IMG/VR virus record: IMGVR_UViG_3300021961_008390
Coordinates: 1-30,398 of that record
From: a virus
Direction: 5' to 3' (one strand)
DNA: 30,398 bases
A program made the translations under genes and the position numbers. Positions 8,318 to 29,778 of the stretch are shown here, piece after piece. Below the pieces are notes generated by a model that did not search any database, was not told the DNA's origin, and saw only the letters and a list, made by a program, of their open reading frames with translations. Every line of letters begins with the position of its first letter. The stretch's first letter is position 1.

Positions 8318-8321
8318 TTAC

Positions 8322-9764: not shown

Positions 9765-9766
9765 TT

Positions 9767-11059: not shown

Positions 11060-11062
11060 TAA

Positions 11063-11518: not shown

Positions 11519-11535
11519 ATTTCATATCTTTAAGT

Positions 11536-12156: not shown

Positions 12157-12163
12157 ATCAGTT

Positions 12164-13489: not shown

Positions 13490-14472
13490 CATTCTTAACA
13501 GAGATGGGATTTGAGGGGAAGATTCCTTCTAACCACTCTAACATGCGAACAGAGTTTGCTTGGATGCATGCATTGGATGCTGATCATAAACGTATATATA
13601 ATTACGGATCAGTGAGAGACTATGACCATGTTTTTATTATATTCCCTAAAGGGAGAGTATATTTAGATGCATGTGGAAGTAAGTTAGTGGATCAAATAAA
13701 TCCTATATCAATGTTACTCTCTTCAAATTTAATAGAAGAGTTAAAACAGTATAACAAAAAAGTATACATAGTACAAGAAGGGCCTCACTGGTTATGGAAC
13801 GATTATGAAATGGTAGACCAAGTACTGTTTTATAATATGCTTACATCCTCAGACGGTATCTTTGCACACAACGAACATGATGTAAAATACTATAAAGGAA
13901 TGTTTCCTAACGTACCTGTGCACGTTATACCTACTCTAATGATTGACTCTATAGTAGAAGATATTCAATCTATTAGAGAAGAAAAGGTTATCATAGGAGG
14001 AAACTTTGCTAGATGGTATGGAGGAATGGAAAGCTTTACAGTAGCACAGAGGTTTGATGTTCCAATATGGGGACAGACTTCTCATGCAATGAGAGATGGA
14101 GAGGATCAATTGGTAAATCATTTACCAAGAGTTATGTGGACAGATTGGATGAAACAGTTAAGTTCATTCAAATATGCTGTACATCTTATGCCAACCATAG
14201 CAGCTGGAACTTTTAGTTTAAATTGTGCATACTTTGGTATACCTTGTATAGGAAATGAGAAAGTAGACACACAGAGACTATGTCATCCAGATCTAGCAGT
14301 AGATGTAGAAGATGTAGAGAAAGCAGCAATGTTAGCTGAAAGATTAAAAAATGATGAAGAGTTCTACAAACAATGTAGTATTACAGCAAAAGATAATTAT
14401 AGAATATATTACAGCCAAGAGTTGTTTAAGCAAAAAATTCTTAGTATATTAAATAGAGATATGCCATTATGA
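13480..14472 (+). CDS. Probable GT-B glycosyltransferase
   Basis: A 330-residue protein. The first half (to about 155) contains 'YDHVFIIFPKGRVYLD' and 'KKVYIVQEGPHWLW'; the second has 'KVIIGGNFARWYGGMES', 'VPIWGQTSH' and 'AGTFSLNCAYFGIPCIGNEKVDTQRLCHPDLAVD', which looks like the sugar-nucleotide-binding half of a GT-B enzyme, where a Gly-x-Pro turn precedes 'IGNE'. It lacks the classical E-x7-E motif, so it belongs to another, less familiar family. It overlaps the preceding gene by 10 bases and the next by four (ATGA), typical of the coupled genes of this island. Confidence 0.65.
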   Translation: MGIAFLTEMGFEGKIPSNHSNMRTEFAWMHALDADHKRIYNYGSVRDYDHVFIIFPKGRVYLDACGSKLVDQINPISMLLSSNLIEELKQYNKKVYIVQEGPHWLWNDYEMVDQVLFYNMLTSSDGIFAHNEHDVKYYKGMFPNVPVHVIPTLMIDSIVEDIQSIREEKVIIGGNFARWYGGMESFTVAQRFDVPIWGQTSHAMRDGEDQLVNHLPRVMWTDWMKQLSSFKYAVHLMPTIAAGTFSLNCAYFGIPCIGNEKVDTQRLCHPDLAVDVEDVEKAAMLAERLKNDEEFYKQCSITAKDNYRIYYSQELFKQKILSILNRDMPL

Positions 14473-15104
14473 GAAAAATTGAATACAGTACAGACATATA
14501 CACCTTCCGAGAACAGTTGCAGAAAGTATTTCGTGTAGATGATTTAACTACGTTAAACGATAACGTTGAAGTTTTTACAAGAGAAGAAGACCAGAGTACT
14601 AGTTGGCATAAACTCTACTATACCTGGGCAAGAACTGAAGAATTTATACAACTATATAGTAACTTTATAGTAAATATAATTAAACCTCTATATAACGAAC
14701 AGGTAGTATTTCAGACAATACCTACATTTAGAGTAGCTTATCCAAACAATATTGCAGTAGGAGAGTACCATAAAGATAAACATTACCGTAACGGCGAATG
14801 GTCAGCTAAGGTGAAAGAGGATAATTTCTACCTACCTTTTACTAATGCATTTGATACTAATACTATTTGGGCTGAATCAGAAGAGGATAAAGGAGATTTT
14901 GCTCCTATGAATTGTAACTATGGGGAATGTATACAGTGGGACGGATGCAATTTAACACACGGAAATAAAATTAACAATACAGGTAAAGCGAGAGTGAGTA
15001 TTGATTTTCGAGTTATTCGACTATCTAACTACATACCTAGCGAACATAGCTCAATCAATACAAAAGCTAAATTCCAGATAGGTGAATACTACCGTGTTTT
15101 ATAG
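14469..15104 (+). CDS. 2-oxoglutarate/Fe(II) oxygenase-like protein (StrG-like)
   Basis: A 211-residue double-stranded beta-helix protein. Metal ligands are seen as H101-x-D103 in 'GEYHKDKHYRNG' and His164 in 'NLTHGNKINNTGKARVSIDFRVI', with Arg175 a candidate for binding 2-oxoglutarate. This pattern resembles the StrG family of streptomycin clusters, whose members also occur in phage and capsule gene clusters. It would hydroxylate or oxidise a sugar or lipid precursor. Starts by ATGA overlap with the GT at 13480. It is the only oxygenase seen in the island. Confidence 0.7.
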   Translation: MRKIEYSTDIYTFREQLQKVFRVDDLTTLNDNVEVFTREEDQSTSWHKLYYTWARTEEFIQLYSNFIVNIIKPLYNEQVVFQTIPTFRVAYPNNIAVGEYHKDKHYRNGEWSAKVKEDNFYLPFTNAFDTNTIWAESEEDKGDFAPMNCNYGECIQWDGCNLTHGNKINNTGKARVSIDFRVIRLSNYIPSEHSSINTKAKFQIGEYYRVL

Positions 15105-15110
15105 TACAGT

Positions 15111-15896
15111 ATGAATTATATAACAACTAACCATAGAGGAGGATTAGGTAATGCAATGTTTAAAATAGCAGCTGCAATATCTATGGCAAAGGATAATAAT
15201 TTAGAATACGTCTTTTCAAAAGAATTTATACGCCCAGGCATTGATCCAGATTATAGAGAATACAGTACAAATGTATTAAGAGATGTACAGTTTATAGACT
15301 GTTTACCTGATCAATATAAAATATGGACAGAACCATCTTTTGCGTACACACCTGTACCTTATCAAAAAGGAAGTAATTTACTTCTTGATGGGTACTACCA
15401 AAGTGCAAGGTATTTTGAAAACAATAAAGAGTTTATAGTAAATTTGTTTGGACCTACACAAGAAATTACTGACCATATTATTTCACAAATCCCAGACATA
15501 GATTCATACGTATCAATCCATGTTAGGAGGGGAGACTATTTAAAGTTTCCTAACCACCATCCACAACAATCTCCTGAATATTTTAAACAAGCGATAGAAC
15601 TACTTGGAGTAGAAAAGACATACTTAATATTCAGTGACGATGTAATAGGATGTGCAGAGCTTTTTGACTTCCTACCTAGTAAACTTTTTATTGATTCAGG
15701 AGCAGATTGGATGGATCTTTATATGATGAGTTTGTGTGAAAGTAATATCATATGTAATAGCACTTTCGGATGGTGGGGAGCTTACCTAAATAACAATCCT
15801 ACTAAAAAGGTAATTGCTCCTATAAAATGGTTTGGAACAGCTTACGCAGATATCGATACATCAGACATATGTCCATTGGATTGGATTAAACTTTAA
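15111..15896 (+). CDS. Alpha-1,2-fucosyltransferase-like (GT11)
   Basis: A 261-residue enzyme with the GT11 motifs in order: 'GGLGNAMF' at 10-17, 'LDGYYQSARYF' at 92-102, the donor-binding 'HVRRGDY' at 137-143, 'YLIFSDD' at 171-177 and 'CNSTFGWWGAYL' at 215-226. GT11 enzymes transfer L-fucose from GDP-fucose to galactose or similar acceptors through an alpha-1,2 bond. Here the donor could be made through the GDP-mannose 4,6-dehydratase at 22954. Seven bases follow the previous gene. Isoleucine is often coded by ATA in this gene, unlike the polymerase and chaperonin genes. Confidence 0.92.
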   Translation: MNYITTNHRGGLGNAMFKIAAAISMAKDNNLEYVFSKEFIRPGIDPDYREYSTNVLRDVQFIDCLPDQYKIWTEPSFAYTPVPYQKGSNLLLDGYYQSARYFENNKEFIVNLFGPTQEITDHIISQIPDIDSYVSIHVRRGDYLKFPNHHPQQSPEYFKQAIELLGVEKTYLIFSDDVIGCAELFDFLPSKLFIDSGADWMDLYMMSLCESNIICNSTFGWWGAYLNNNPTKKVIAPIKWFGTAYADIDTSDICPLDWIKL

Positions 15897-15906
15897 TATA
15901 TAACAA

Positions 15907-16323
15907 ATGGAAAAAATTTATTCAAAAGTAGAGCAAGGAAAACTACTACACATTATCAACAGGTTGGACGAAATTGAAAACAGAACAGAAGTAGTCCCAG
16001 AGGATAACTTTATACAGTGTGCAACACTGAGAATGGAAAAAGGAAAAACATTTCCACCACATAAGCACATAAAGAAAGACAGACATTATCCTGAACAAAT
16101 AGCGCAGGAGTCTTGGATAGTTATATCAGGAAGTGTTAAATGTATCTTTTACGATCTAGATGATACCGTTATTGCAACTCCAATACTTAAACCAGGTGAC
16201 GCGAGCTTTACACTGTACGGAGGACATACCTATGAAATCTTAGAAGATAACACAGTTGTATACGAATATAAGACAGGTCCTTATGAAGGGCAAAAATTAG
16301 ATAAAACTTTTATTAATGGATAA
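15907..16323 (+). CDS. Cupin-domain protein
   Basis: A 138-residue cupin. The metal site is His52 and His54 in 'FPPHKHIKK', Glu68 in 'AQESWIVISGSV' and His107 in 'LYGGHTYEI', with the second conserved Gly turn in 'LKPGDASF'. Small single-domain cupins in sugar clusters may be isomerases (FdtA-like), epimerases or simple metal-binding proteins; the 'QESWIVISGSV' segment resembles WbuC-like cupins of O-antigen loci. Its exact reaction is unknown. The next gene starts within its last eight bases. Confidence 0.75.
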   Translation: MEKIYSKVEQGKLLHIINRLDEIENRTEVVPEDNFIQCATLRMEKGKTFPPHKHIKKDRHYPEQIAQESWIVISGSVKCIFYDLDDTVIATPILKPGDASFTLYGGHTYEILEDNTVVYEYKTGPYEGQKLDKTFING

Positions 16324-17173
16324 ATTTTATAGAATATCACCAACACGCCACGGATGGGGATATGGATACGGTTTCTTTTCAAATTACAGAATTTGTTTAG
16401 AGCAGCTTATATTACATAAAGAAAGCGGTATGGATACAATCCCCTACATAGACTGGTCAGGTACGACATGGGTTGAGGGATTTAATCCTTTTGAGTCAAC
16501 TCATATTGTTAATGATTATAATCCATTCGATCAATGGTTTGATCAACAAATACCACAACCAGGAGATGAAATAATAGAATGTACAATTCCGTCTAACCCT
16601 GATATACTAGACCACAGTAAAGACTATTTTGATAGTCCAGATCAACTACACAGGCAACAATTAGTTGATAAACAATACCTTAAAATAAAGCAGCCAATAC
16701 TTGATAAAGTATCTGCAATATGGGATAAGGAATTTGCAGGACATACAGTTTTAGGGGTAATGGCTAGAGGGACTGAAAATTACTTTCACCACCCGATGTA
16801 CGGCATATTCACTGTAGACGATTATATTAAAGGGATTCAAAAAATCTTGCAAGATAATCCACAAATAACCAAAATATTTCTAGCCAGTGAAGATATGGAG
16901 TATATATCAGCAATGCACGCTGCATTTCCACAGTCGTACTTTATACCAGATGTATTTAGAACAACAGACGAAACAATGGAGTATATGAATGCTGTACATT
17001 GCTGGATGAATGTCTCAACCAAGCGAAACAATCACTGTAAATTGCTAGGGGAAGAAACTATAATACAGACAAAACTTCTCAGTAAATGTGACTACATATT
17101 TGGCAAACACGGAGGTGTAATAGCAGGGTCAGTGTTGTGGAATGAGAAATTAAAACGTATATTTAAGATATAA
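16316..17173 (+). CDS. Fucosyltransferase-like protein (NodZ/O-fucosyltransferase superfamily)
   Basis: A 285-residue protein. 'LGVMARGTENYFHHPMYG' (about 145-162) replaces the 'VHVRRGD' loop that binds GDP in GT11, GT23 and GT65 enzymes; 'KIFLASEDMEYISAMHAAF' corresponds to the following 'DD' strand, and 'LLSKCDYIFGKHGGVIAGSVLW' near the C-terminus to the nucleotide-binding end. It has the same order as the protein at 17717, so the two are distant paralogues. The N-terminal 'HGWGYGYGFFSNYR' is Gly-rich like the start of fucosyltransferases. The donor is inferred to be GDP-linked. Not as certain as the GT11 gene. Confidence 0.65.
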   Translation: MDKFYRISPTRHGWGYGYGFFSNYRICLEQLILHKESGMDTIPYIDWSGTTWVEGFNPFESTHIVNDYNPFDQWFDQQIPQPGDEIIECTIPSNPDILDHSKDYFDSPDQLHRQQLVDKQYLKIKQPILDKVSAIWDKEFAGHTVLGVMARGTENYFHHPMYGIFTVDDYIKGIQKILQDNPQITKIFLASEDMEYISAMHAAFPQSYFIPDVFRTTDETMEYMNAVHCWMNVSTKRNNHCKLLGEETIIQTKLLSKCDYIFGKHGGVIAGSVLWNEKLKRIFKI

Positions 17174-17196
17174 AATACTTTTATAATATTAGCAGT

Positions 17197-17727
17197 ATGG
17201 TAAACATAATAGGGGATGATGTACTGGTTGACGTAGATGTAATTAGTAAACAGGAATTAAAAATAAATGGATCTCATGTCTCAATTGACAAAGGAGTTTA
17301 TTGTTCAACAAACGTTACAGTAGGAGATTACGTTCACATAAGTCCATATGTTACAATTATAGGAGGAAAGAAGGGATCCTTTATAGCTAAAGGATTTAAT
17401 AATATAATGGCAGGAGCTAGAATCATTTGCGGATCAGATCGATTTGACGGAAGCGGATTATTCGGAGCAATGATACCTGAAGAATTAAAAGGCACTCAGA
17501 TTATTGAACCAGTTATTATGGAGGAGTTCTCTAACATAGGAACAAATGCAATTGTACTTCCTGGATCAATTCTAAGAAGAGGGGTACTACTGGCAGCTGG
17601 AAGTCTTTTAAAAGGAGATACAGAAGAGTGGGGAGTTTATAAAGGTAACCCTGCAGTGCTGGTAAAGAAAGTAGATCCAACTAATATATTAGAGAATGCA
17701 AAAAAATTAGGGTATAATGAAGTATGA
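17197..17727 (+). CDS. Hexapeptide-repeat acyltransferase (left-handed beta-helix)
   Basis: A 176-residue protein built of hexapeptide repeats ('VSIDKGVYCSTNVTVGDYVHISPYVTIIGG', 'FNNIMAGARIICG', 'VIMEEFSNIGTNAIVLPGSILRRGVLLAAGSLL') and ending in 'YKGNPAVLVKK', the typical C-terminal turn of sugar O- or N-acetyltransferases (Maa/NeuD/WbbJ types). It would add an acetyl group from acetyl-CoA to a sugar of the glycan or to an amino sugar precursor. The last 11 bases overlap the next gene. The catalytic His is not certain from sight; His47 in 'YVHIS' is a candidate. Confidence 0.85.
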   Translation: MVNIIGDDVLVDVDVISKQELKINGSHVSIDKGVYCSTNVTVGDYVHISPYVTIIGGKKGSFIAKGFNNIMAGARIICGSDRFDGSGLFGAMIPEELKGTQIIEPVIMEEFSNIGTNAIVLPGSILRRGVLLAAGSLLKGDTEEWGVYKGNPAVLVKKVDPTNILENAKKLGYNEV

Positions 17728-18544
17728 ATTAGAGTTTGTAAAAATAACAGATCAGCACGAGTATGCAGGTGTAGGCTTTGCAGGAAATATATTTATAGCA
17801 CTTAATGCACTAACTCATATATCCGCAAACGACAGGTTAGTTGTTAATATGGAAAAGCAAGATTGTGTATGTACTGAGCGAAACAGTAACTTACACAATA
17901 CAGAGAATTGCTGGGAGTATTATTTTGATCAAGAAAAGATAGAGGAAGGAGAGGCCTTTGGTAAAATGAATAGTCTTATATCTGCAAATCTAAAATACGA
18001 CTGTAATAGTTACTATGCAGATACGCAGGAATTTTCTGAACTTAGAAAGGCCTTTTATAACTCTTTTAGATTAAAACAGTACCTGGTTGATCTTATAAAT
18101 GACTACTACGATCAAAACATAAAAGATAAGGTAACATTAGGGGTGCAGATTAGGTTGACCGATATGAGGTATCATCACAAAGTATCCCCCGGTATAGCTT
18201 ATATAGATCGAATAAAAGCTATACTAGCAGAAAATACATTAATTGAACAAATATTTTTAGCTACCGACGATAACACAGTTATTGAGTTAGTAAGGCAGCA
18301 TATAAATCTTCCTGTTATTTGCTACGAAGATATGTACAGAGCTAACGCAGATAACCCACATTTACATCCATACGATAGGTATAGAGACAGTAGGCCATAT
18401 CATAAATACCAGTTAGGTGTGGAATGCATCCAAGAAATATTTACACTAGCAAAATGCAACTACTTACTAAAAGCAGATATTTCAGCACTGTCAATTGTTG
18501 CAAGTATATTATCTGAAAATATTAAAAAAGTATATAAGTTATGA
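17717..18544 (+). CDS. Second fucosyltransferase-like protein, paralogue of 16316
   Basis: A 275-residue protein with the same element order as the one at 16316: 'VTLGVQIRLTDMRYHHKV' (about 138-155) in place of the GDP-binding 'HVRRGD' loop, 'QIFLATDDNTVIELVRQHI', and a C-terminal 'CNYLLKADISALSIVASILSENIKKVYKL'. The Arg in 'QIRLTDMR' may be the donor-binding arginine. The N-terminus 'YAGVGFAGNIFIALNAL' is the Gly-rich opening of this superfamily. Acceptor and donor are unknown. It overlaps the next gene by ATGA, so the two are likely coupled. Confidence 0.65.
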   Translation: MKYELEFVKITDQHEYAGVGFAGNIFIALNALTHISANDRLVVNMEKQDCVCTERNSNLHNTENCWEYYFDQEKIEEGEAFGKMNSLISANLKYDCNSYYADTQEFSELRKAFYNSFRLKQYLVDLINDYYDQNIKDKVTLGVQIRLTDMRYHHKVSPGIAYIDRIKAILAENTLIEQIFLATDDNTVIELVRQHINLPVICYEDMYRANADNPHLHPYDRYRDSRPYHKYQLGVECIQEIFTLAKCNYLLKADISALSIVASILSENIKKVYKL

Positions 18545-19209
18545 TTTACATTATAGGAGATAGTCACGTATCAGTTTTTTCAGGCACAGATACGACCTAC
18601 GAAGGATTACGCCATATTCAACCAGAATTTGGAACATGCTATACCCTAAGCCAGGGACAGTTAAAACAGCATATTAACAGGTTTGAGCAAAGAATACCTC
18701 ATTTTTGTCCAATAAAGATAGGTTCAAACACAGCATATAACTCACTAAATAAACTCCCTAGAATCGAACAAGCTATTTTAGAGTACGGCGTTAAAGAAGG
18801 TGACTATGTTTTTTTAAGCTTTGGAGAAATAGATATACGTAACCATATAGGATTTCATACTAACGACATTGAACAGGGTATAATAGAATGTGTAGACCGT
18901 TATATGCAAACAATATTAAGCTTAAAAGGTAGGGACTTTAAGGTAGGGGTGTATGCTCCGCCTGCATCTTCTGTTGGAGGGACTACCGTAGATTATGGGG
19001 ATGTTATCTTAAGAAATAAAATGACACTTCAATTTAGTACACACCTAAAAAAATTATGTATAGAAAATAATATTATTTTTAAAGACATAGCACCATTATT
19101 AATACTCCCAGATGGAACTACTGATGAAAGTTTTATTATGGACGATATACACCTAGCACAGAAAGCTATGCCACTTTTACTACGAGAGTTTGCAGATATT
19201 ATTACGTAG
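18541..19209 (+). CDS. SGNH/GDSL-family hydrolase or acetyl-esterase
   Basis: A 222-residue protein with the SGNH catalytic signatures: block I 'IIGDSHV' with nucleophile Ser8, block III 'SFGEIDIRNH' (93-102), and block V 'DDIH' at 201-204 with Asp201 and His204. The family removes acetyl or other acyl groups from sugars, or transfers them. It lies one gene from the acyltransferase at 17197, so the pair may set the acetylation state of the glycan. No signal peptide is seen, so it acts in the cytoplasm. Starts by a 4-base overlap with the preceding gene. Confidence 0.85.
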   Translation: MIYIIGDSHVSVFSGTDTTYEGLRHIQPEFGTCYTLSQGQLKQHINRFEQRIPHFCPIKIGSNTAYNSLNKLPRIEQAILEYGVKEGDYVFLSFGEIDIRNHIGFHTNDIEQGIIECVDRYMQTILSLKGRDFKVGVYAPPASSVGGTTVDYGDVILRNKMTLQFSTHLKKLCIENNIIFKDIAPLLILPDGTTDESFIMDDIHLAQKAMPLLLREFADIIT

Positions 19210-19228
19210 TATCAAAATTACAATAAGT

Positions 19229-19858
19229 ATGAAATGTATATTAATACAAGCCAACGGTAACAATATCCGATTAGGTAAATATTTTAGTCAACCTAAGTAT
19301 GAATTATTTTATAAAGGTAAAAGGATAGTTGATACAATAATAGAAAATGCAACTAACTGTGCCGACAAGGTATTTGTTGCAGTTAGGGGAGGTGTTGAGA
19401 TTAAATTTGATAATTCAAAAGTAACACTAATACCGTGTAAACAAACAAACAATAGGTTAGATACATTAAAACAATGCTTCCCATACCTACAAGAATACTC
19501 CTCAGTAGTAATACACGACTGTGATACTATTATTGAATCCGATGTATTATATAAATTAGAGAGAGATAGTATAGCAATAACTAATTATAAATTAGATGGA
19601 TTAAAGTATGGTTTTGTTGGATTAGATCATAATTTTAACTATATTAATGGTAATGAGAAAGAGAAAGAAACAGGTCACATTACAGTAGGAGCGTATAGTG
19701 TGGTTGTAGATTCCTTTTGTAAGTATTTAGAAAAAGCAACAGAAGAGAGTTTACTAACGTACTATAACCAGGTTAAAAATGTTAATGTTGTTTATTCAAA
19801 AAATCATACAAATTTAGGAGATATTAATTCATATATTGATAATTTATGGTTGTTGTAG
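19229..19858 (+). CDS. Nucleotidyltransferase-like protein (GT-A fold)
   Basis: A 209-residue protein from ATG 19229; an upstream TTG at 19190 would overlap the previous gene and adds 13 unrelated residues, so I reject it. 'MKCILIQANGNNIRLGKYF' followed by 'QPKYELFYKGKRIVDTII' mirrors the start of sugar-1-phosphate nucleotidyltransferases ('G.G.R......PK.L....g.pi....'), and 'SVVIHDCDTII' the metal-binding Asp strand. 'TGHITVGAYSVVVDSF' fits the later substrate strand. It probably activates a sugar or alcohol phosphate with CTP or GTP. It overlaps the phosphatase-kinase gene by 13 bases, which suggests they share a pathway. Confidence 0.7.
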   Translation: MKCILIQANGNNIRLGKYFSQPKYELFYKGKRIVDTIIENATNCADKVFVAVRGGVEIKFDNSKVTLIPCKQTNNRLDTLKQCFPYLQEYSSVVIHDCDTIIESDVLYKLERDSIAITNYKLDGLKYGFVGLDHNFNYINGNEKEKETGHITVGAYSVVVDSFCKYLEKATEESLLTYYNQVKNVNVVYSKNHTNLGDINSYIDNLWLL

Positions 19859-20835
19859 TAGATTTTGACGGCACGTTAGCCCTAGGGGATACGGGAGATA
19901 TTAGTACTATGTACTTAAATCGAAAACTAGCTTCCTTAGTTAATAAAATGTACGATGATGGAAATACAATAAAAGTAGTAACTGCTAGGGGATCTAAGTC
20001 ATGTTCAACCATTAGTCAACGAGAAGAAAAGTATAAAGATATTGTAACTAATTGGCTACATACCAATGGAGTTAAGTTTCATGAACTCTCTTTTAGTAAG
20101 GAGTACGGAGATGCGTACATAGACGATAGGGCATATAATATAGACAACACTATCTTTTATGAAAAGCTAGATTCAAAATTTACAACTAATAAAGTTCGAC
20201 GAATAAATAATTGTGTCGTAAAAGTAACTGCGAATAGTAGTAACGAAGTAGCTTGGTATAACAAAGCTTTAGAAATTGAACTAGACACCCCAGGAGTTTT
20301 GAGTTATGATAAAAATACAATAGCAACTAGGTATGTAGAAGGAACTTATTGTAGTAATGTATCCCTAGTACTAGACACCTTGTCTAAATTTAAGAATACC
20401 CCACCAACAAATAAAGCTAATTTTAATACATATATTGAGAGGATTAAAAATCATTTAGAAAATAATATACTTATACAGAATAAAGATAAACTACTCACAC
20501 TGCTAGGTACGATTAACCCACCAAATACATTTAACCATGGGGACTTCTCAGTACATAATCAAATAGAGAGTAACGGTAAGTTATACCTAATAGATCCAAT
20601 ATACTCGGAAGATATATACCAATCTTACGTACTAGATGCTGCTAAACATCTATATAGCGTACTGTATTATACTTTAGATTCAGATTTTTTTAATACATGT
20701 TATGATCAGTATACGTATAAACTAGGTATTAAAAAAAATGAATTAGATATACTAATTGCGTGTGAAGCTGTCAGAGTATGTAACCGTAAAAAACAGTTAA
20801 CAGATATTACTAATAACTTAATAGATGCACTATGA
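19846..20835 (+). CDS. Fusion of a HAD phosphatase and an APH-type kinase
   Basis: A 329-residue two-domain protein. Residues 1-110 are a HAD phosphatase: 'VVDFDGTLA' with Asp6 and Asp8, 'VVTARGS' (motif II, Thr46), Lys85, and 'YIDDRA' (Asp93, Asp94). Residues about 118-329 resemble an aminoglycoside phosphotransferase/choline kinase fold: 'NNCVVKVTA' (ATP-binding Lys126), catalytic 'FNHGDFSVHNQ' (His231, Asp233, Asn238) and the metal-binding 'LIDP' (Asp250). With the nucleotidyltransferase-like gene just upstream this gives kinase, phosphatase and nucleotide-transfer activities side by side, as in heptose or phosphocholine activation routes. Substrate unknown. Ends with an ATGA overlap into 20832. 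Confidence 0.8.
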   Translation: MVVVVDFDGTLALGDTGDISTMYLNRKLASLVNKMYDDGNTIKVVTARGSKSCSTISQREEKYKDIVTNWLHTNGVKFHELSFSKEYGDAYIDDRAYNIDNTIFYEKLDSKFTTNKVRRINNCVVKVTANSSNEVAWYNKALEIELDTPGVLSYDKNTIATRYVEGTYCSNVSLVLDTLSKFKNTPPTNKANFNTYIERIKNHLENNILIQNKDKLLTLLGTINPPNTFNHGDFSVHNQIESNGKLYLIDPIYSEDIYQSYVLDAAKHLYSVLYYTLDSDFFNTCYDQYTYKLGIKKNELDILIACEAVRVCNRKKQLTDITNNLIDAL

Positions 20836-21506
20836 AGACAATGATAGTAATACCGTGTAGGAACACAGGTGAAAAACATATAGTAAACTGCATCAAGAGT
20901 ATTAGAGAATCAGGAAATGAAGACCTAATCTGCGTAGTTGATAGTAACTCTCCAGATAAGACATACTTTACCGAAATTCAACAATATGAAGTACTTATTG
21001 AAGATATTAATAATACACACCATATTGATGGAGCAATTTGGCACTGTTATGAAAAGTATGTCGATGTTGAATTTTTTTATATAATACACGATAGTATGGT
21101 TGTTAATAAAAAACTCACTCCAATAACTAAAAACGATCTTACAGTGTTTAGCTACTTCGAAGGACTACCCTTTGATTCAGATACACAATACGTCTACAGT
21201 ATGTCTAAAATAGCGGAGACAGGTTTAGATTTAACAAATGTAAAATTGAATACACTAGCAGGACTATTTGGGACTACACTATACTGTAAAAGAAAGATTT
21301 TAGATGATTTGAAGCAACTGGGATTAAATAAGATACTACCAACAAATAAATTAGAAGCTCAAGCTAGTGAAAGAATTTGGGGAATATTTTTGCATAAGTT
21401 AGGATTTGATATTAGATTAAATACATTAAGGGAGTTTATTAACCAGAATACTGAGTTTACAGATAAGACAGACTATATAACAAAGATCTTCGTAGGAAGA
21501 GGTTAA
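20832..21506 (+). CDS. GT-A-like glycosyltransferase
   Basis: A 224-residue protein starting 'MKTMIVIPCRNTGEKHIVNCIKSIRESGNEDLICVVDSNSPDKT', the layout of GT-A enzymes where 'VVDSNSPD' is the first nucleotide-binding strand. 'FYIIHDSMVV' (about 81-90) holds a possible metal-binding Asp in the position of the DxD. 'ASERIWGIFLHKLGF' resembles the catalytic 'ED/ER..w...' stretch. No membrane helices. It has very high A/T content and many ATA and TTA codons. Donor and acceptor unknown. Confidence 0.6.
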   Translation: MKTMIVIPCRNTGEKHIVNCIKSIRESGNEDLICVVDSNSPDKTYFTEIQQYEVLIEDINNTHHIDGAIWHCYEKYVDVEFFYIIHDSMVVNKKLTPITKNDLTVFSYFEGLPFDSDTQYVYSMSKIAETGLDLTNVKLNTLAGLFGTTLYCKRKILDDLKQLGLNKILPTNKLEAQASERIWGIFLHKLGFDIRLNTLREFINQNTEFTDKTDYITKIFVGRG

Positions 21507-21527
21507 TACTTATTAAAGCAAAATACT

Positions 21528-22334
21528 ATGAATAGAACAAAAATTAACATGATAGGCGGAGGATTCCAGCATAGTGTCTCTACCAATGATATGGATCCAA
21601 AGTTTATTGAATGGGTTAAAGATAGGTCAGCACAAATCTCAATACATATTGACGATGGTTTATTTATAGAAATAGATCCAATAACAAAGAACTTTGGCTG
21701 GTTATGTGAATCAAAAACAATAGCACCACAGTATTATAAATGGTGTAGAGAAAATATTACAGCATTAAAAGCTAACTTTATAAAAGTCTTTACACATGAT
21801 GCCGAATTAGCAGAGCTATCTGATATCTTTCAACTTACACAATGTAGTGCTAAATCTTATTTTGCTCATGGAGAGGTATATCCAAAAACTAAGCTAGTTT
21901 CAATGATAGCATCAAATAAAATAATGTGTGCAGAACATGTACTAAGGCAAGAGGTAGTTCAAAAGTTTTCAAAAGAATGTGATCATTTTGGTAGAGGATA
22001 TACGCCGTTAGAAAATAAAGAAGATGGATTAAAAGATTACTGCTTTTCAATTGTAATGGAAAATGCAACATATCCAAACATGTTTACAGAGAAAATAACT
22101 GATTGCTTTATGACAGGTACAATTCCAATTTATTACGGTATTGATAATATTGGAGATTATTTTGATACTGAGGGAATTATAATGTTACATGATAGTTTTG
22201 AAATTAAAGATCTTTCCTTTGAATTATACCAATCAAAAATAGAAGCGGTTAGAAAAAATTTACAACTAGCCATTGACCTGTTGACAGCAGAAGATTACAT
22301 ATACAAAAACTTTATACAGACTTATGAATTTTAA
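21528..22334 (+). CDS. GT10-type fucosyltransferase (alpha-1,3/4-like)
   Basis: A 268-residue protein whose C-terminal half carries the GT10 hallmark 'YCFSIVMENATYPNMFTEKITDCFMTGTIPIYYG' (171-204): the donor-binding 'F...MEN', the 'TEK' and the closing Gly-x-x-Pro turn. 'KLVSMIASNK' (122-131) matches the 'SNC/SNK' helix before it. GT10 enzymes transfer L-fucose from GDP-fucose through alpha-1,3 or 1,4 bonds. The last 11 bases overlap the compact aminotransferase gene. Three or four fucosyltransferase-like genes in one island suggest a heavily fucosylated product or relatives of GDP-fucose as donors. Confidence 0.85.
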   Translation: MNRTKINMIGGGFQHSVSTNDMDPKFIEWVKDRSAQISIHIDDGLFIEIDPITKNFGWLCESKTIAPQYYKWCRENITALKANFIKVFTHDAELAELSDIFQLTQCSAKSYFAHGEVYPKTKLVSMIASNKIMCAEHVLRQEVVQKFSKECDHFGRGYTPLENKEDGLKDYCFSIVMENATYPNMFTEKITDCFMTGTIPIYYGIDNIGDYFDTEGIIMLHDSFEIKDLSFELYQSKIEAVRKNLQLAIDLLTAEDYIYKNFIQTYEF

Positions 22335-22938
22335 CACAGTAACAGAATTTGAAAATCAGGTAGCACAGTTCTTCGGAGCACCCTACGCTGTAGCAGTAGA
22401 TGCTTGTACCCACGGGGTAGAGTTGTCACTACGGTACACTAATGCAAATAAAATAAGTGTACCAAAGAATACTTATTTGTCTATTCCATTTTTATTTCGT
22501 AAATTAAATATAGAATTAGAATGGAGAGAGGAAGATTGGAAGGATTATTATTATGTAACAGATACAGTAATAGACGCAGCAGTACTTTGGAAAAGAGGTA
22601 GTTATGTACCGGGTACGTTTATGAGCTTATCCTTTCAGTACCAAAAACATTTAAGTCTAGGAAGAGGAGGAATGATCTTAACAGACAATAAAGAAGCAGC
22701 TATTCAACTAAAGAAGATGTCTTATGATGGAAGGCTTCCAAATATTCCTTGGAGAGATCAGAACATTGATACAGTAGGGTACCATTATTATATGACACCT
22801 GAAACAGCTCAACTAGGATTAGATAAACTCCCAGCAGCAATAGAGACAACACCAAGACAGTGGACAGTAAATGACTGGCCAGATTTAACACAGATGACGG
22901 TCTTTTCACAACTAGACCCTTATTTACAAACAAGATAA
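22324..22938 (+). CDS. Compact DegT/DnrJ/EryC1/StrS aminotransferase
   Basis: A 204-residue member of the sugar aminotransferase family, about half the usual 370-400. It has the start 'FENQVAQFFGAPYAVAVDACTHGVELSL', then a shortened middle, and the PLP-binding Lys108 in 'SFQYQKHLSLGRGGMILTD', followed by 'MSYDGR' and 'GYHYYMTPETAQLGLDKL', the usual late active-site loop. So the active-site residues remain but the region between the substrate loop and Lys, and the whole C-terminal small domain, are reduced. It would place an amino group on a keto-sugar such as a 4-keto-6-deoxy product. No frameshift is visible; the end is a clean stop, so it is likely a natural short form. Confidence 0.82.
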   Translation: MNFNTVTEFENQVAQFFGAPYAVAVDACTHGVELSLRYTNANKISVPKNTYLSIPFLFRKLNIELEWREEDWKDYYYVTDTVIDAAVLWKRGSYVPGTFMSLSFQYQKHLSLGRGGMILTDNKEAAIQLKKMSYDGRLPNIPWRDQNIDTVGYHYYMTPETAQLGLDKLPAAIETTPRQWTVNDWPDLTQMTVFSQLDPYLQTR

Positions 22939-22953
22939 AAATATAATATAAAA

Positions 22954-23922
22954 ATGAAAAAAGCATTTATTACAGGAATTAATGGCCAAGACGGAAGTTA
23001 TTTAGCTGAGTATTTATTAGGATTAGGATACGAGGTTCACGGTATTGTACGAAGAAATTCAGTACCTGAACATCAACAAAGCCGTATCGATAGTGCAAGA
23101 ACTAATATGCACGTATATTACGGAGATTTACTAGATCAAGGTAGTATAGAACATTTATTAGACAAAATACAGCCAGACGAAATATACAACCTAGCTGCAC
23201 AGTCTCACGTTAGGATTAGTTACGACATTCCTCAATTTACAGCTCAGACAAATGCAGTAGGTGTCCTTAATATGTTAGAAGCTTATAGAAGGTCATGCCC
23301 AAATGCTAAATTCTATCAAGCATCATCTTCAGAGATGTTCGGTTCATCCGTAGATGCAGACGGATATCAAAGAGAAACCACACCAATGAATCCAGTATCG
23401 CCTTATGGATGTACAAAAGTATTTGGATATAATATTGTAAGAAATTATAGAAATGCCTATAAGTTACATACTTCAAATGGAATTTTATTTAACCATGAAT
23501 CACCTCGTAGAGGATCTAACTTTGTAACTAACAAGGTTGTTAAAGCAGCAGTATCAATCAAGCTAGGATTAGAAGATAAGTTAGAGTTAGGTAACATGGA
23601 TGCTTATAGAGATTGGGGCCACTCAAAAGACTATATTAAAGCAATGCACTTAATCCTTCAGCAAGATAAACCAGGAGACTGGGTAGTAGCTACAGGAGAG
23701 ACTAGATCAGTAAGAGATATGTGCGAGTATGTATTTAGTAAGTTAGGTCTAGACTATAACCAATATGTTGTACAGAATCAAAAGTTCTTACGTCCTGAAG
23801 AGCTTCCTTATCTCAAAGGAGATTCAACTAGAATAAGAGAGTTAGGATGGAAACCAGAATACACCTTTGAAAGTATGATGGATGAAATGATTGAACACTG
23901 GAGTACAGTATTAGGGAAATAA
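22954..23922 (+). CDS. gmd: GDP-mannose 4,6-dehydratase
   Basis: NADP-dependent extended SDR that makes GDP-4-keto-6-deoxymannose, the precursor of GDP-fucose, GDP-perosamine and GDP-colitose. 322 residues, near full length. Signatures: 'ITGINGQDGSYLAEYL' (Gly8, Gly11, Gly14), 'IVRRNS', 'NLAAQSHV', 'ASSSEMFG' (123-130, catalytic Ser/Glu), Tyr151-x3-Lys155 ('YGCTK'), 'LFNHESPRRG', and 'YRDWGHSKDY'. The close fit to Gmd makes the assignment firm. It is the key supply step for the GT10, GT11 and related enzymes nearby. Codon use is closer to the early genes than to 18-22 kb. Confidence 0.97.
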   Translation: MKKAFITGINGQDGSYLAEYLLGLGYEVHGIVRRNSVPEHQQSRIDSARTNMHVYYGDLLDQGSIEHLLDKIQPDEIYNLAAQSHVRISYDIPQFTAQTNAVGVLNMLEAYRRSCPNAKFYQASSSEMFGSSVDADGYQRETTPMNPVSPYGCTKVFGYNIVRNYRNAYKLHTSNGILFNHESPRRGSNFVTNKVVKAAVSIKLGLEDKLELGNMDAYRDWGHSKDYIKAMHLILQQDKPGDWVVATGETRSVRDMCEYVFSKLGLDYNQYVVQNQKFLRPEELPYLKGDSTRIRELGWKPEYTFESMMDEMIEHWSTVLGK

Positions 23923-23938
23923 CCTATAAATTAAACAA

Positions 23939-24700
23939 GTGCATAAATTTAAAATAGTCATACCGTCTTATAATAACGAGGATTGGATAGAATATAATTT
24001 AGCTAGCATACTAAACCAGACATATACCGACTATGAGGTACTTTATATAGATGATGCATCAAAGGATAATACCTTAATAAAAGTACAAAATATAGTCGGT
24101 AACCTGGACAATTGGACAATCATATCAAATCCTGTAAATAAAAGAAGAGGCTACAATATAGATCCACACAATAAACATATTCAGAATTTTATGAATAATG
24201 AAGAGGATGTGCTCGTATTTGTAGATGGTGACGATTGGCTATATGATGAAGAGGTTTTATCTAAGTTAAATAAGTTTTACATAGAACATACCCCATGGAT
24301 GACTTACGGAGGAATGGTATGCTATCCCAGCGGTATGCCAGGTAATCCTCAAAATACTCCCTACAGTGAACAAGTACACTTAGGTAAGTTATATCGTCAA
24401 GATTATTGGAGAGCATCACACCTACGTACCTTCAAGTGGGGATTGTATAAGCAAATTAAAAAAGAAGATCTACTCTATAGTAAGACAGGGGATTACTATT
24501 TTCATGCAGAAGATTTAGCAACATCTTTTCCTTGTCTAGAAATGTGTCCTCCTGAAAAAGTTGGCGTTTTAGATTTTTATTCATATATTTTTAATGAAAC
24601 ACTATCTAACCGTAGTAGGGGTATAGAAAGAGAAAAAGAAGCCGGAGAAGAATTAGAGTATGAAATTAGAAATAAACCAAAATATAGTGAATTAATGTGA
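23939..24700 (+). CDS. GT2-family glycosyltransferase
   Basis: A 253-residue GT-A enzyme with 'KIVIPSYNNEDWIEYNLASILNQTY', the nucleotide-binding 'YIDDASKDNT' (36-45) and the metal-binding 'VDGDDWLYDE' (95-104). 'RTFKWGLYKQI' and 'HAEDLATSF' follow, the second holding the catalytic acid in the usual 'ED' position. Start is GTG at 23939, the first residue before 'HKFKIVIP'; no ATG is available at this place. It ends in ATGTGA, where the next gene begins with GTG by a 4-base overlap. Donor and acceptor are unknown. Confidence 0.88.
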   Translation: MHKFKIVIPSYNNEDWIEYNLASILNQTYTDYEVLYIDDASKDNTLIKVQNIVGNLDNWTIISNPVNKRRGYNIDPHNKHIQNFMNNEEDVLVFVDGDDWLYDEEVLSKLNKFYIEHTPWMTYGGMVCYPSGMPGNPQNTPYSEQVHLGKLYRQDYWRASHLRTFKWGLYKQIKKEDLLYSKTGDYYFHAEDLATSFPCLEMCPPEKVGVLDFYSYIFNETLSNRSRGIEREKEAGEELEYEIRNKPKYSELM

Positions 24701-25650
24701 AAGTAGTCTACGTAACAGGTTGTTTAGGGTTCATAGGATCTTATGTAACAAGAGCATGTCTTAGTAAAGGATGGTATGTAAAGGGAGTTGATAAGGGAAC
24801 ATATGCAGCTAATAAAACTCTACTAAAAGAATTTAAAGAGTACAGTACTTTTTCATTTGTTGATTGTGATATAAATGATTTAAAGTTTCTATACGATTGT
24901 GATTATATAATTAATACAGCAGCCGAAACTCACGTAGGTAATTCAATTGCTAATTCAGATGAGTTTGTATCTTCAAATGTAAACGGAGTACACAACTTAC
25001 TAGAGTTAATTAAGAATCACAGGGGAGAGCATTCAGCAAAACCTGTACTACTCCACTTTAGTACAGATGAAGTGTATGGTGACATTGCCGAAGGAGAGCA
25101 TATCGAAACAGATTTACTTAAACCTTCCAATCCATACTCAGCTACAAAAGCAGCAGCTGATATGTTAGTAACAGCATGGGGCAGAACATATAACCTTCCA
25201 TATGTAATAGTTAGGCCAACTAACAACTACGGAGCAGGTCAGTACACGGAGAAGCTAATTCCTAAGGCATTGAAGTACCTAAAACTGGGTAAAAAGATTC
25301 CACTGCACAATAACGGCACTCCAATTAGAACTTGGCTACATGCTCAGGATACAGCCAATGCTGTTGTAAAGATAATCGAATCAGGAGTACAGAATGAGAT
25401 ATTTAATATCTGTGGAGGATTTGAGCAAAGTAATTTGGAAACCATCAAAAAAGTTCTTACATTGTACAATAAGGATCAGGTTTATATATTAGAAGACTTT
25501 GTAGATTTCTCATATGATAGACAAGGGCAGGATGTTCGATATGCTTTGAATGATGATAAATTAAGGGCATTAGGATGGAAGCCCCAAATAAACTTTGATA
25601 CTGAATTAAAGTATATTGTAGAATACTATAGAGAGAAGTTTATATGGTAG
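24697..25650 (+). CDS. RmlB-like NDP-sugar 4,6-dehydratase
   Basis: A 317-residue extended SDR. NAD-binding 'VTGCLGFIGSYV', 'INTAAETHVGNSI', 'HFSTDEVYGDI' (120-130; Asp124 and Glu125 are the dehydratase acid/base pair), 'NPYSATKAAAD' with Tyr147-x3-Lys151, and 'RPTNNYGAGQYTEKLIP'. These match dTDP-glucose 4,6-dehydratase (RmlB) closely, so a 4-keto-6-deoxy nucleotide sugar is the probable product. The nucleotide cannot be told: dTDP, UDP or CDP are all possible, and a CDP product would be the classical substrate of the RfbH-like enzyme at 12164. Starts with GTG overlapping the preceding stop by four bases. Confidence 0.9.
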   Translation: MKVVYVTGCLGFIGSYVTRACLSKGWYVKGVDKGTYAANKTLLKEFKEYSTFSFVDCDINDLKFLYDCDYIINTAAETHVGNSIANSDEFVSSNVNGVHNLLELIKNHRGEHSAKPVLLHFSTDEVYGDIAEGEHIETDLLKPSNPYSATKAAADMLVTAWGRTYNLPYVIVRPTNNYGAGQYTEKLIPKALKYLKLGKKIPLHNNGTPIRTWLHAQDTANAVVKIIESGVQNEIFNICGGFEQSNLETIKKVLTLYNKDQVYILEDFVDFSYDRQGQDVRYALNDDKLRALGWKPQINFDTELKYIVEYYREKFIW

Positions 25651-26261
25651 AATTAAAAAAGAGAATAGCTGAAATAGCCTATATACATAAGCTAGGACAT
25701 TTAGGAAGCTACTTATCGAGTGTAGGTATTGTTGATGAGATCTTTTCTAAAATGAATAAAGACGATATCTTTATACTATCCTCAGGTCATGCATCCTTAG
25801 CAATGTACGTATGCCTGGAGAAGTATCATGGAATAAATGCTGAGGAGTTGTTTATCAAACATGGAGGACATCCTCATAGGGATGAAGAGAATAAGATATA
25901 CTGCTCAACAGGAAGTCTAGGATTAGGATTGACAATTGCTCTAGGAAGAGCAGTAGCTAATCCAAAGAGAAAGGTTTGGGTATTGATAAGCGATGGTGAA
26001 GCAGCTGAAGGGAGTATTTGGGAGGCTCTTAAGACTATTGTAGAAGAAAAGATTGATAACATAGAAGTATTTGTTAACATAAACGGATTATGTGCATATA
26101 AAGAAGTTGATCAAGATTACATCTCATCTAGGTTAAAAGCATTCCTACCTACAATTAATCTAAGATATACTACGGTAGAGCAATACCCTTTCTTAAAAGG
26201 ACTAAATGCACACTACCATGTAATGAATGAAGACAATTATAAACAGGTTTTAGAATCTTAA
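25644..26261 (+). CDS. Transketolase-like subunit, thiamine diphosphate-binding domain
   Basis: A 205-residue protein matching the N-terminal third of transketolase: 'HLGSYLSSVGIVDEI' (His19), 'FILSSGHASLAMY' (His49), 'KHGGHPHRDEE', 'STGSLGLGLTIALGRAVA' and the ThDP/metal motif 'SDGEAAEGSIWEALKTIVEEKIDNIEVFVNINGL' (Asp117). The pyrimidine-binding half is on the next gene one base later. Such split transketolases are known in bacteria and archaea; in sugar clusters they may transfer a two-carbon unit to make branched sugars or supply precursors. Overlaps the RmlB-like gene by seven bases. Substrate unknown. Confidence 0.88.
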   Translation: MVELKKRIAEIAYIHKLGHLGSYLSSVGIVDEIFSKMNKDDIFILSSGHASLAMYVCLEKYHGINAEELFIKHGGHPHRDEENKIYCSTGSLGLGLTIALGRAVANPKRKVWVLISDGEAAEGSIWEALKTIVEEKIDNIEVFVNINGLCAYKEVDQDYISSRLKAFLPTINLRYTTVEQYPFLKGLNAHYHVMNEDNYKQVLES

Positions 26262-26262
26262 T

Positions 26263-26739
26263 ATGAGAAGAACGTTTGCAAGCTTGTTACACCAAGCAAT
26301 GGAACATAATCAAGACATACACTTAGTAACAGGTGATTTAGGATATGGACTCTGGGACGATGTAAGAGATACTTACCCCGATCGCTTTCATAATGTAGGT
26401 TCTTCCGAAATGGTTATGATGGGAATGGCTATTGGATTGGCAATGGAAGGAAAGATTCCTTTTGTATACTCTATTACTCCTTTTGCAATCTATAGGCCTT
26501 TTGAAATGATTAGGAATTATTTAGATTATGAAAAAATTCCTGTAAACATTATTGGAGGAGGTAGAGATAAGGATTATGGATATTTAGGATTCTCTCACTG
26601 GTCTCATGACGATAAAAGAATTATGGGAGTATTTGATAATATCAAAACATATCATCCAGAAACAGATGAAGAGTTAACAGACTTCTTTAAGTATACATTA
26701 CAGAAGAGATCTCCAATCTATATTAATTTAAAGCGATGA
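26263..26739 (+). CDS. Transketolase-like subunit, pyrimidine-binding domain
   Basis: A 158-residue partner of the preceding gene: 'HLVTGDLGYG', 'FHNVGSSEMVMMGMAIGLAMEGKIPFVYSITPFAIYRPFEMIRN' with the catalytic Glu49 that activates thiamine diphosphate, and 'IIGGGRDKDYGYLGFSHWSHDDKRIM'. It ends with 'SPIYINLKR' at the end of the Pyr domain; the C-terminal transketolase domain (about 130 residues) is missing. Two-gene split enzymes usually keep it on the second subunit, so this is a minimal form. The next gene begins within the ATGA overlap. Confidence 0.88.
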   Translation: MRRTFASLLHQAMEHNQDIHLVTGDLGYGLWDDVRDTYPDRFHNVGSSEMVMMGMAIGLAMEGKIPFVYSITPFAIYRPFEMIRNYLDYEKIPVNIIGGGRDKDYGYLGFSHWSHDDKRIMGVFDNIKTYHPETDEELTDFFKYTLQKRSPIYINLKR

Positions 26740-27515
26740 AAATACTAATTACAGGCGGTAACGGATATCTAGCAAAGAGCATTACAAAGAGCTTATGGAG
26801 TAAGTATCATATAATAGCTCCAGGTAGAGATGAGTTAGATTTAACCGATAGTAAGTCTGTTGATCGTTTCTTTAAAGATAAATACTTTGATGTAGTTATA
26901 CATACAGCCATAAAAGGTGCAGCTAGTCCTAGAGATCCAGACGAGACTATTTCATTTTGGAATTTAGTTATGTTTTATAATTTAATGTCAAAGAGAGATC
27001 ATTTTAATAAACTAATCAATATAGGTTCAGGAGCTGAAAGATATTTGATAGAAACTCCTTACGGACATAGTAAAAGTATTATTAATAAGTTAGTTCATAA
27101 GCATGATAACTTTTATACTTTAAGAATATATGGAGTGTTTAGTGAGGATGAATTAGAGACAAGATTCATAAAAGCTAGTATCAATAATGTATTGCAAGGT
27201 AATCCAATAAAGATACATCAGGATAAGTTAATGGACTTTATGTATATGCCTGACTTGATTGCTATAATCGAACACTACATTGTAGGTAAAGATCTTCTGA
27301 AAGAAGTAGACTGTATATATGATGATACTGTTTCGTTAAGTAATATAGCTCAGCAAATAAATAATCTATCAATAAATAAAGTACCAATCAATATAGAAGA
27401 TCCTCTTCCAGGACAGAACTATATAGGAACTTACAACAATCTTCCAATAGCTTACTTAGGATTGGAACAAGGAATTAAAAACGTCTATAATAAATTAGTA
27501 AATGCAGCCAATTAG
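26736..27515 (+). CDS. Extended SDR, GDP-fucose synthase/RmlD-like reductase-epimerase
   Basis: A 259-residue NAD(P)-dependent protein starting 'KILITGGNGYLAKSI' (GGxGYLA), with 'LDLTDSKSVDRFF....FDVVIHTA' as in RmlD and Fcl, 'INIGSGAE' in place of the Ser strand, and 'TPYGHSKSI' holding Tyr-x3-Lys. It ends 'GLEQGIKNVY'. It is short for an epimerase, with a reduced C-terminal half. Placed after Gmd and a 4,6-dehydratase, it is the best local candidate to reduce or epimerise a 4-keto-6-deoxy sugar, possibly to GDP-L-fucose. The function is inferred from context. Its last 14 bases overlap the next gene. Confidence 0.8.
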   Translation: MKILITGGNGYLAKSITKSLWSKYHIIAPGRDELDLTDSKSVDRFFKDKYFDVVIHTAIKGAASPRDPDETISFWNLVMFYNLMSKRDHFNKLINIGSGAERYLIETPYGHSKSIINKLVHKHDNFYTLRIYGVFSEDELETRFIKASINNVLQGNPIKIHQDKLMDFMYMPDLIAIIEHYIVGKDLLKEVDCIYDDTVSLSNIAQQINNLSINKVPINIEDPLPGQNYIGTYNNLPIAYLGLEQGIKNVYNKLVNAAN

Positions 27516-28770
27516 TTTTTGTATCAATACAGCTAGAAACGAATTAGAGTATATTAAGTTATTGTTTAAATCACTTAAAGATAATCTGAAGTCAGATGAA
27601 CATGAAATTATTGTGTTTATAGACTCTGACAATGAAGGTACTTTTGAATGGTTACTTGAGCAGAAATTACAATTTAAAAATCTTAGAGTACTTAAAAACA
27701 TTCTACCGGTATGTTATGGCTATGCTAGAAATATAAATGAGATGTTTAAATTTGCTTCTCATGATATAGTTTCTTATTTACAATCAGATATGGTTATAAG
27801 TAAAGACTACGATGAGTATGTACTGAAGCATGTTAAGCCTAATATGGTGCTATCTAGTACTAGAATTGAACCACCACTACATGGACCAGGGCCTGAAAAG
27901 CATACAATGAACTTTGGATTAGCTCCTTCTGAATTTAAGTATGAGGAGTTCTTGCAGTACTGTAAAGAGAATCGCCAAGAGAATTTAACAGAATATTTCT
28001 TTGCTCCATTTACAATGTATAAAGATGTTTGGAATAGTATAGGAGGTCATGATACATTGTTTAGAAGATCAAGAGAAGACTCTGATATATTAAATAGACT
28101 AATACTTTCAGGAGTAGAGATCGTACAAACATGGGAAGCTTTGGTGTATCATTTCACCTGTACTTCAAGTAGAGGAAAAGGATGGTTTGATAAGTCAAAT
28201 AAAGAAGCACAACTAAGAGCAAGAATGCAAGAACAAGCAGACGAAGTTGAAATGACTAGGATGTTTAGAAAGTGGGGAGGATTTAGTCACGGTAAGCCTT
28301 TTGACTATCACTACGATATTGTAGCTAATATAGAATTTGACTCAGCAAATCTTATGCTACTACCAATAGTAGAAACATTTTTTAATAAAGTAGGAGTAAC
28401 AAATAAAGATGCATACGACTATTTAGTAAATGCAGATGAGCATAAGTATGCGAATGAATTACTTAATTTTAGTCAAGAGGACTGGGACAGTTATTCGTAC
28501 CTATATAACACACAAAACTTAGAAGACAGGTTTATGTTAGGAGAGGTGGAGGGAGATATAATTCTGACTTTTAAACTGAGTCAAATCAATCAAGAAAATT
28601 ATAATGAAGTATTACAGAACCTACAACATATTGTTCATAATGCTGAAGAAGGAGATTGGGAGGTCGGAGGACTAATACTATCAATAAAGAATAAAACAAA
28701 CAATATTAAAGATAAGATTAAAATAACTAACCCAGAAATAAAACCAAAACACTTATACGAAGTGTATTAG
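27502..28770 (+). CDS. GT2-family glycosyltransferase with unknown C-terminal region
   Basis: Last gene of the glycan island, 422 residues. GT-A domain: 'ISFCINTARNELEYIKLLFKSL', 'IIVFIDSDNEGT' (37-47), 'CYGYARNINEMF', metal-binding 'YLQSDMVISKD' (92-102), and 'RSREDSDILNRLILSG' near 190-205 with the catalytic-type 'ED'. Residues from about 265 onward do not look like part of a GT2 fold: helical, acidic, without motif. That extra region may bind the acceptor or a partner protein. Followed by an AT-rich gap with a TATTTAT element. Confidence 0.82.
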   Translation: MQPISFCINTARNELEYIKLLFKSLKDNLKSDEHEIIVFIDSDNEGTFEWLLEQKLQFKNLRVLKNILPVCYGYARNINEMFKFASHDIVSYLQSDMVISKDYDEYVLKHVKPNMVLSSTRIEPPLHGPGPEKHTMNFGLAPSEFKYEEFLQYCKENRQENLTEYFFAPFTMYKDVWNSIGGHDTLFRRSREDSDILNRLILSGVEIVQTWEALVYHFTCTSSRGKGWFDKSNKEAQLRARMQEQADEVEMTRMFRKWGGFSHGKPFDYHYDIVANIEFDSANLMLLPIVETFFNKVGVTNKDAYDYLVNADEHKYANELLNFSQEDWDSYSYLYNTQNLEDRFMLGEVEGDIILTFKLSQINQENYNEVLQNLQHIVHNAEEGDWEVGGLILSIKNKTNNIKDKIKITNPEIKPKHLYEVY

Positions 28771-28779
28771 AAACTAAAC

Positions 28780-28799
28780 TATTTATATAAAAAGCAAAT
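28780..28799 (+). promoter_or_regulatory. Possible promoter ahead of 28800
   Basis: The 29-base gap behind the glycan island contains TATTTATATAAA (28780-28791), sharing TATTTAT with other likely unit starts. No terminator hairpin is visible between the island and this gene, so read-through is also possible. Confidence 0.3.
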
Positions 28800-29144: not shown

Positions 29145-29150
29145 TATATT

Positions 29151-29363: not shown

Positions 29364-29385
29364 TATTAGTATAAAGGAAAAGGAT

Positions 29386-29721: not shown

Positions 29722-29778
29722 TTGCTAGAACGAATACTTATTCTTATATTTAGGTATAATTAATAAACAAAAACGGTT
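29722..29778 (+). promoter_or_regulatory. AT-rich gap with short palindrome, possible promoter
   Basis: The gap holds the palindrome GAATA-CT-TATTC (29731-29742), then TATATTTAGGTATAATTAAT and the leader AAACGGTTATG of the gene at 29779. The palindrome could be an operator half-site pair or part of a weak hairpin. No T-run follows, so a terminator is unlikely. Confidence 0.3.

Follow-up and report, generated by a model that had tools for sequence, protein, structure and literature searches.

A minimal two-chain transketolase in a Flavobacterium-type phage as a probable ketone-accepting carboligase for branched-sugar synthesis

A Flavobacterium-type phage known from a 30,398-base virus record, the whole of which was analysed and is called here the window, encodes a two-chain, transketolase-type enzyme which quite probably works as a carboligase with a ketone acceptor, in a branched-sugar pathway encoded by the phage. 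As the initial annotation had stated, the pair is set between an NDP-sugar 4,6-dehydratase and an SDR, its neighbours being a dTDP-glucose 4,6-dehydratase-like protein (24697-25650) and an SDR (26736-27515). With somewhat less assurance, though still on balance, we favor the broader view that aquatic phages possess a combinatorial sugar-branching system, in which a conserved dehydratase-reductase frame takes a carboligase from any of three ThDP superfamilies together with matching donor-making enzymes, so that close relatives make sugars that differ in their carbon branches; in this scheme the minimal transketolase (TK) pair would be the hydroxyacetyl version. The features of the window are as follows:

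12164..28770, + strand: variable sugar island between conserved phage genes, from comparison with isolate MW353175
12164..13489, + strand: RfbH/E1-type sugar 3-dehydrase (NF011936; AHHITMGEGG and CYC...C motifs), which adjoins DEH/SDR in many sister loci
24697..25650, + strand: DEH, RmlB-type NDP-glucose 4,6-dehydratase, expected maker of the 4-keto acceptor (TIGR01181, 304 bits; STDEVYG motif)
25644..26261, + strand: TK-N, ThDP PP-domain subunit of 205 amino acids (Pfam Transketolase_N; 6yak the best PDB match in sequence and fold; invariant residues)
26263..26739, + strand: TK-P, pyrimidine-binding-domain subunit of 158 amino acids without a C-terminal domain (Pfam Transket_pyr; 6yaj the best PDB match in sequence and fold; invariant residues)
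26736..27515, + strand: SDR, RmlD/epimerase-type reductase, expected reducer of the branched product (Pfam Epimerase, RmlD_sub_bind; Tyr-x3-Lys motif)
27502..28770, + strand: glycosyltransferase family 2 (GT2), candidate for transferring the finished sugar (Pfam Glycos_transf_2; its start overlaps the SDR stop)

The genes DEH, TK-N, TK-P, SDR and GT2 follow each other tightly, with an overlap of 7 bases, a gap of 1 base and overlaps of 4 and 14 bases. The TIGR01181 score of DEH lies below the cut-off of 365 bits for dTDP-glucose dehydratase, and its STDEVYG motif was present in 99 of 100 members of the DEH family; the Tyr-x3-Lys motif was found in 78 of 100 SDR family members, the other 22 giving no match to this simple pattern. 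The window RfbH reached 461 bits with NF011936 (cut-off 423) and has a histidine in place of the PLP lysine as well as Fe-S type cysteines. It is likely to provide the 3-deoxygenation step of the same sugar route, its role here being less sure since it lies about 11 kb upstream of the TK pair.

Two adjoining genes had been proposed to hold the ThDP-binding and pyrimidine-binding domains of a minimal split transketolase, and this is borne out by both ORFs and by concordant Pfam, PDB and fold comparisons. TK-N matched Transketolase_N (E 1e-7) and TK-P matched Transket_pyr (E 3e-14), both above the Pfam cut-offs. PDB sequence comparison gave 6yak and 6yaj, the two chains of the Carboxydothermus hydrogenoformans split transketolase (ChTK), as their nearest solved structures, and the AlphaFold models, which are monomer predictions (pLDDT 92.8 for TK-N and 91.6 for TK-P), retrieved the same entries as best fold matches (TM 0.86 and 0.90, respectively, normalised by query). 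The reported absence of the third transketolase domain was likewise confirmed: Transketolase_C (PF02780) was found nowhere in the 30,398-base record, whereas the same search was positive in 14 of 14 control genomes. The pair thus shares with ChTK the separate, adjoining PP and Pyr chains, the fold and the donor-site residues (PMC7661550); it differs in that ChTK-C carries a TKC domain and the chains of ChTK have 309 and 341 amino acids, whereas TK-P stops after the Pyr domain, the chains have 205 and 158 amino acids, and the genes stand in a sugar operon. Neither chain belongs to the families of the YerE-like single-chain enzymes (TPP_enzyme_N/M/C), which are those matched by the single-chain slot-mates described below, and TK-N matches Transketolase_N rather than the E1_dh family of alpha-KADH2 PP subunits. 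TK-N and TK-P would form a minimal two-chain ThDP enzyme of the transketolase superfamily, expected to be an alpha2beta2 assembly.

TK-P relatives were encoded on 180 viral contigs in one scan, so the pair is not a chance arrangement, and over 100 viral contigs, as well as some bacteria, retain it; the viral contigs were found through peptide patterns, up to 80 per scan, and these counts therefore describe samples rather than frequencies. The sets include overlapping loci and loci of near-identical phages, and counts were made on distinct dehydratase sequences; genes were called with a simple filter on ORFs, and BLAST to seed proteins supplied the family labels. Among 65 non-redundant viral loci, TK-N and TK-P occurred together in all 65, with an SDR within 9 kb in 64, a DEH in 61 and an RfbH-like protein in 54. 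The order dehydratase, TK pair, reductase was kept in nearly all cases, and TK-P and SDR overlap by 4 bases in most sister loci. Conserved pairing with sugar dehydratases in other clusters, which had been suggested as a check, was thus observed, DEH or SDR flanking the pair in nearly all 65 loci; a setting with 4,6-dehydratase, 3-dehydrase and reductase is also that of YerE-like enzymes. Phage isolates gave just distant matches to the TK pair, below 60% identity. Bacterial members, from Patescibacteria, Omnitrophota and Elusimicrobia (TK-P identity 44-55%), have the same two-domain architecture, which makes the minimal split transketolase a wider family that is not confined to phages. Their clusters contain a methyltransferase, a GT2 and, in many, an SDR of dehydratase type that is different from DEH; neither DEH nor RfbH of the kind seen in the phage module is present. 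Three loci binned in Maricaulis and Thaumarchaeota MAGs (L094, L095 and L096) show the viral order TK-N, TK-P, SDR, RfbH, DEH; probably these are contigs of phages that ended up in the MAG bins.

The viral RfbH-like neighbours have a histidine at the PLP-lysine position in every case, as in the 3,6-dideoxy route used by YerE (PMC12247030), and most carry Fe-S type cysteines. About 15 are of a SHVITAGG type without these cysteines, so the 3-dehydrase may exist in at least two forms. Such DegT-family proteins adjoin DEH in L037 (5286-6437), L007, L040, L067 and other loci, and could possibly be a second kind of sugar 3-dehydrase.

Loci were also fetched through the window dehydratase alone and counted where the SDR was in view (n=53). 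A ThDP enzyme occupied the slot between the two genes in 53 of 53 (31 single-chain, 14 TK, 7 E1 and 1 with both), and none was empty. By Pfam and NCBIfam, the alternatives to the TK pair are an E1_dh/Transket_pyr pair (208 and 178 amino acids) or three-domain ThDP enzymes of 575-608 amino acids. When three of the single-chain enzymes were compared with PDB, the nearest entry was 8rph, with 382-504 bits, followed by an acetolactate synthase with 255-266 bits. 8rph is JanthE, a YerE-like enzyme which joins 2-oxo acids to ketones (PMC12188165), and members of both the JanthE/YerE-like and the E1-alpha/beta groups have been shown to couple donors to ketones (PMC12247030, PMC12188165). Among RfbH-selected loci longer than 12 kb, a ThDP gene was present in 47 of 52 with DEH vs. 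0 of 16 without it (Fisher p 1e-11); in all five DEH loci of this sample that had no ThDP gene, DEH was at most about 4 kb from the locus end. One candidate for a locus lacking the ThDP enzyme, L277, was rejected, its contig stopping at AroB, where sister loci run on into the carboligase. The two-carbon transfer to a keto-sugar put forward in the initial annotation is thus well supported, at the level of sequence comparison, by slot exchange with ketone-coupling enzyme groups and by the conserved DEH and SDR flanks.

Likely donor-making enzymes were found in the slot of 30 of 38 single-chain loci vs. 0 of 62 TK or E1 loci (p 2e-18), a restriction which would be expected if TK and E1 enzymes use common host donors. 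The types are 4-hydroxy-2-oxovalerate aldolase with acetaldehyde dehydrogenase, PanB, HpcH and NeuB, and the MhpE and MhpF relatives pass the NCBIfam equivalog cut-offs. The donors that ErwE prefers include 4-hydroxy-2-oxopentanoate (PMC12247030), which is the expected product of an MhpE-type aldolase. In L147 (10696-12548) and similar loci, MhpF and MhpE lie beside a JanthE-like enzyme, resembling an erwiniose-like donor supply. PanB-like ketopantoate hydroxymethyltransferases lie beside single-chain carboligases in L140, L168, L177 and L181, and possibly make a hydroxylated 2-oxo acid donor there.

Pairwise comparisons located the exchange. The window and L137 are 87% identical as far as the end of DEH, where the match breaks, and match again from the SDR start at 76%; with L135, whose slot-mate matches E1_dh, it is 89% identical through DEH and, after the break, the match resumes at the SDR at 77%. 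Carboligase swaps are repeated, some of them recent, and between near relatives the exchanged piece coincides precisely with gene boundaries. In a quick tree built from 100 dehydratases, with many weak branches, the cassette type needs 30 changes, and TK needs at least 10 from the well-supported branches alone; by tree distance, the nearest dehydratases to that of the window include carriers of TK, E1 and single-chain enzymes. The SDR tree required 27 changes, tracking the cassette only slightly better than the DEH tree, so there is no particular support for the SDR acting directly on the branched product.

Three kinds of known system bear on this arrangement. YerE, ErwE and JanthE, of yersiniose and erwiniose synthesis, have the same presumed job, a ThDP-dependent C-C bond on a 4-keto deoxy sugar, near a 4,6-dehydratase and a 3-dehydrase, and JanthE homologues fill the same slot in sister phages; these enzymes, however, are single three-domain chains of the decarboxylase superfamily with 2-oxo acid donors, a different family from the TK pair. 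KbDH-alpha/beta and the other alpha-KADH2 pairs (kibdelomycin, aldgamycin, avilamycin) are also two-chain ThDP enzymes that add a C2 branch to a keto sugar (PMC12247030), and a minimal, alpha-KADH2-like E1 pair is a slot-mate of the TK pair, but they belong to the E1_dh family, use an acetyl donor and come from antibiotic clusters. For the split-gene transketolases of miharamycin and amipurimycin the same role has been proposed and never demonstrated; they are from Streptomyces natural-product clusters and are likened here by description, not by sequence.

In the proposed route, DEH would convert an NDP-glucose to the 4-keto-6-deoxy sugar, from which the RfbH-type 3-dehydrase could optionally remove the C3 hydroxyl. 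With hydroxypyruvate or a ketose phosphate of the host as donor, the TK pair would then attach a two-carbon ketol (hydroxyacetyl) unit at the C4 ketone. The SDR would reduce the ketone of the new side chain, and the glycosyltransferase would use the product, which is likely an NDP-4-C-(hydroxyacetyl)-6-deoxy or 3,6-dideoxy sugar, subsequently reduced. We infer the reaction with its donor, acceptor, nucleotide and stereochemistry, the use of the sugar, and the order of the steps, the last by analogy with the yersiniose route. There the reductase acts later in the pathway. YerE itself acts on CDP-3,6-dideoxy-4-keto-glucose (PMC12247030).

The key residues named in the initial annotation, H19, H49 and D117 of TK-N and E49 of TK-P, are present, and were invariant in 87 TK-N and 86 TK-P sequences (13 of each bacterial), as were H76, G90, E122 and N147 of TK-N and D25 and H112 of TK-P. 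The TK-N invariants are the equivalents of E. coli TK His26, His66, His100, Gly114, Asp155, Glu160 and Asn185, and those of TK-P of Asp381, Glu411 and His473; the correspondence was read by eye from motifs for His26, Asp155, Glu160, Asn185 and Asp381 and taken from alignments for the remaining residues. The ChTK-type donor-site residues H66, H100, G114 and H473 (E. coli numbering) thus find their counterparts in H49, H76 and G90 of TK-N and H112 of TK-P. The usual GDG motif is SDG in every viral member, and JanthE has CDG at this motif (PMC12247030). Close to the end of TK-N (window 25644-26261) there is an invariant His-Tyr, H190 and Y191, which may stand in for the late PP-loop histidine of full-length transketolase.

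These residues bear on the choice of donor. Transketolase and DXPS are told apart at E. coli TK His100, which is Phe in DXPS (PMC7661550), and the histidine at this position in all sequences makes a ketol donor likelier than pyruvate; judged from these residues, the donor of the TK pair is probably a ketol. An acetyl donor (pyruvate), as in YerE and KbDH, would give a 4-C-acetyl instead of a hydroxyacetyl sugar. The E1 and JanthE-like slot occupants, which come from groups using pyruvate or 2-oxo acids (PMC12247030), speak for it, but pyruvate is not accepted by the studied split transketolase (PMC7661550) and acetyl transfer would already be provided for by the E1 pairs found in sister phages, so that with the invariant histidine we regard this donor as unlikely.

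Still less probable is that the two genes serve central carbon metabolism as auxiliary metabolic genes, moving two-carbon units between sugar phosphates, with the sugar genes nearby by chance. Its closest solved relative is indeed an active split transketolase, and surveys file viral transketolase under central-carbon, Calvin-cycle or C1 metabolism (PMC12615777, PMC8319345). However, the DEH-TK-SDR order is kept in most loci and unrelated carboligases fill the same slot, and on gene context and slot exchange a pentose-phosphate role was rejected. In addition, the curated equivalog tktlase_bact (TIGR00232) gave 28 bits vs. a cut-off of 682, and the viral members have an invariant Gly29 where, in an alignment made by eye, E. 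coli TK has Ser385. That the pair makes or modifies another sugar intermediate, e.g., by elongating an open-chain sugar phosphate which is then activated, the slot being a gene-order habit, is very improbable: the bacterial relatives with methyltransferase, GT2 and another SDR but no DEH or RfbH would fit it, whereas two points argue against it: carboligases that accept ketones replace the pair one for one at the same place between the same two genes, and the TK cassette slot is without nucleotidyltransferase or kinase.

If the ketone-accepting reading is correct, the minimal TK pair would be the first transketolase-type enzyme shown to act on a ketone, an activity never demonstrated so far (PMC12247030), and it offers a testable case for the question of whether transketolases pass ketol units to ketones; split transketolases of two domains might, in addition, find use as catalysts in making chiral tertiary alcohols. 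Among the papers searched, none joined phages, branched-chain sugars and thiamine. Our results suggest that at least some viral transketolase and acetolactate-synthase-like genes that are filed under carbon metabolism serve sugar diversification, and the cassette swaps between close phage relatives suggest selection for new sugars.

By DNA polymerase (98% identity), the closest isolate is Flavobacterium phage vB_FspM_immuto_2-6A (MW353175). It matches window positions 1-12164 at about 70-87% (85-87% over most) and 28764-30398 at 90%, and window 12164-28770 is replaced in MW353175.1 by a different, shorter sugar island (52.4-60.0 kb), in which no such carboligase cassette was found. This isolate, an Immutovirus infecting Flavobacterium sp. 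LMO8, is a phage of the same kind whose island differs, and it provides a laboratory backbone. Replacement of the whole sugar island between related phages, with flanks at about 85-90%, marks a hypervariable glycan locus. Also within the island, at 19190-20835, a small nucleotidyltransferase-like protein without a Pfam match adjoins a HAD plus kinase-like protein, and these genes could possibly activate another sugar or alcohol.
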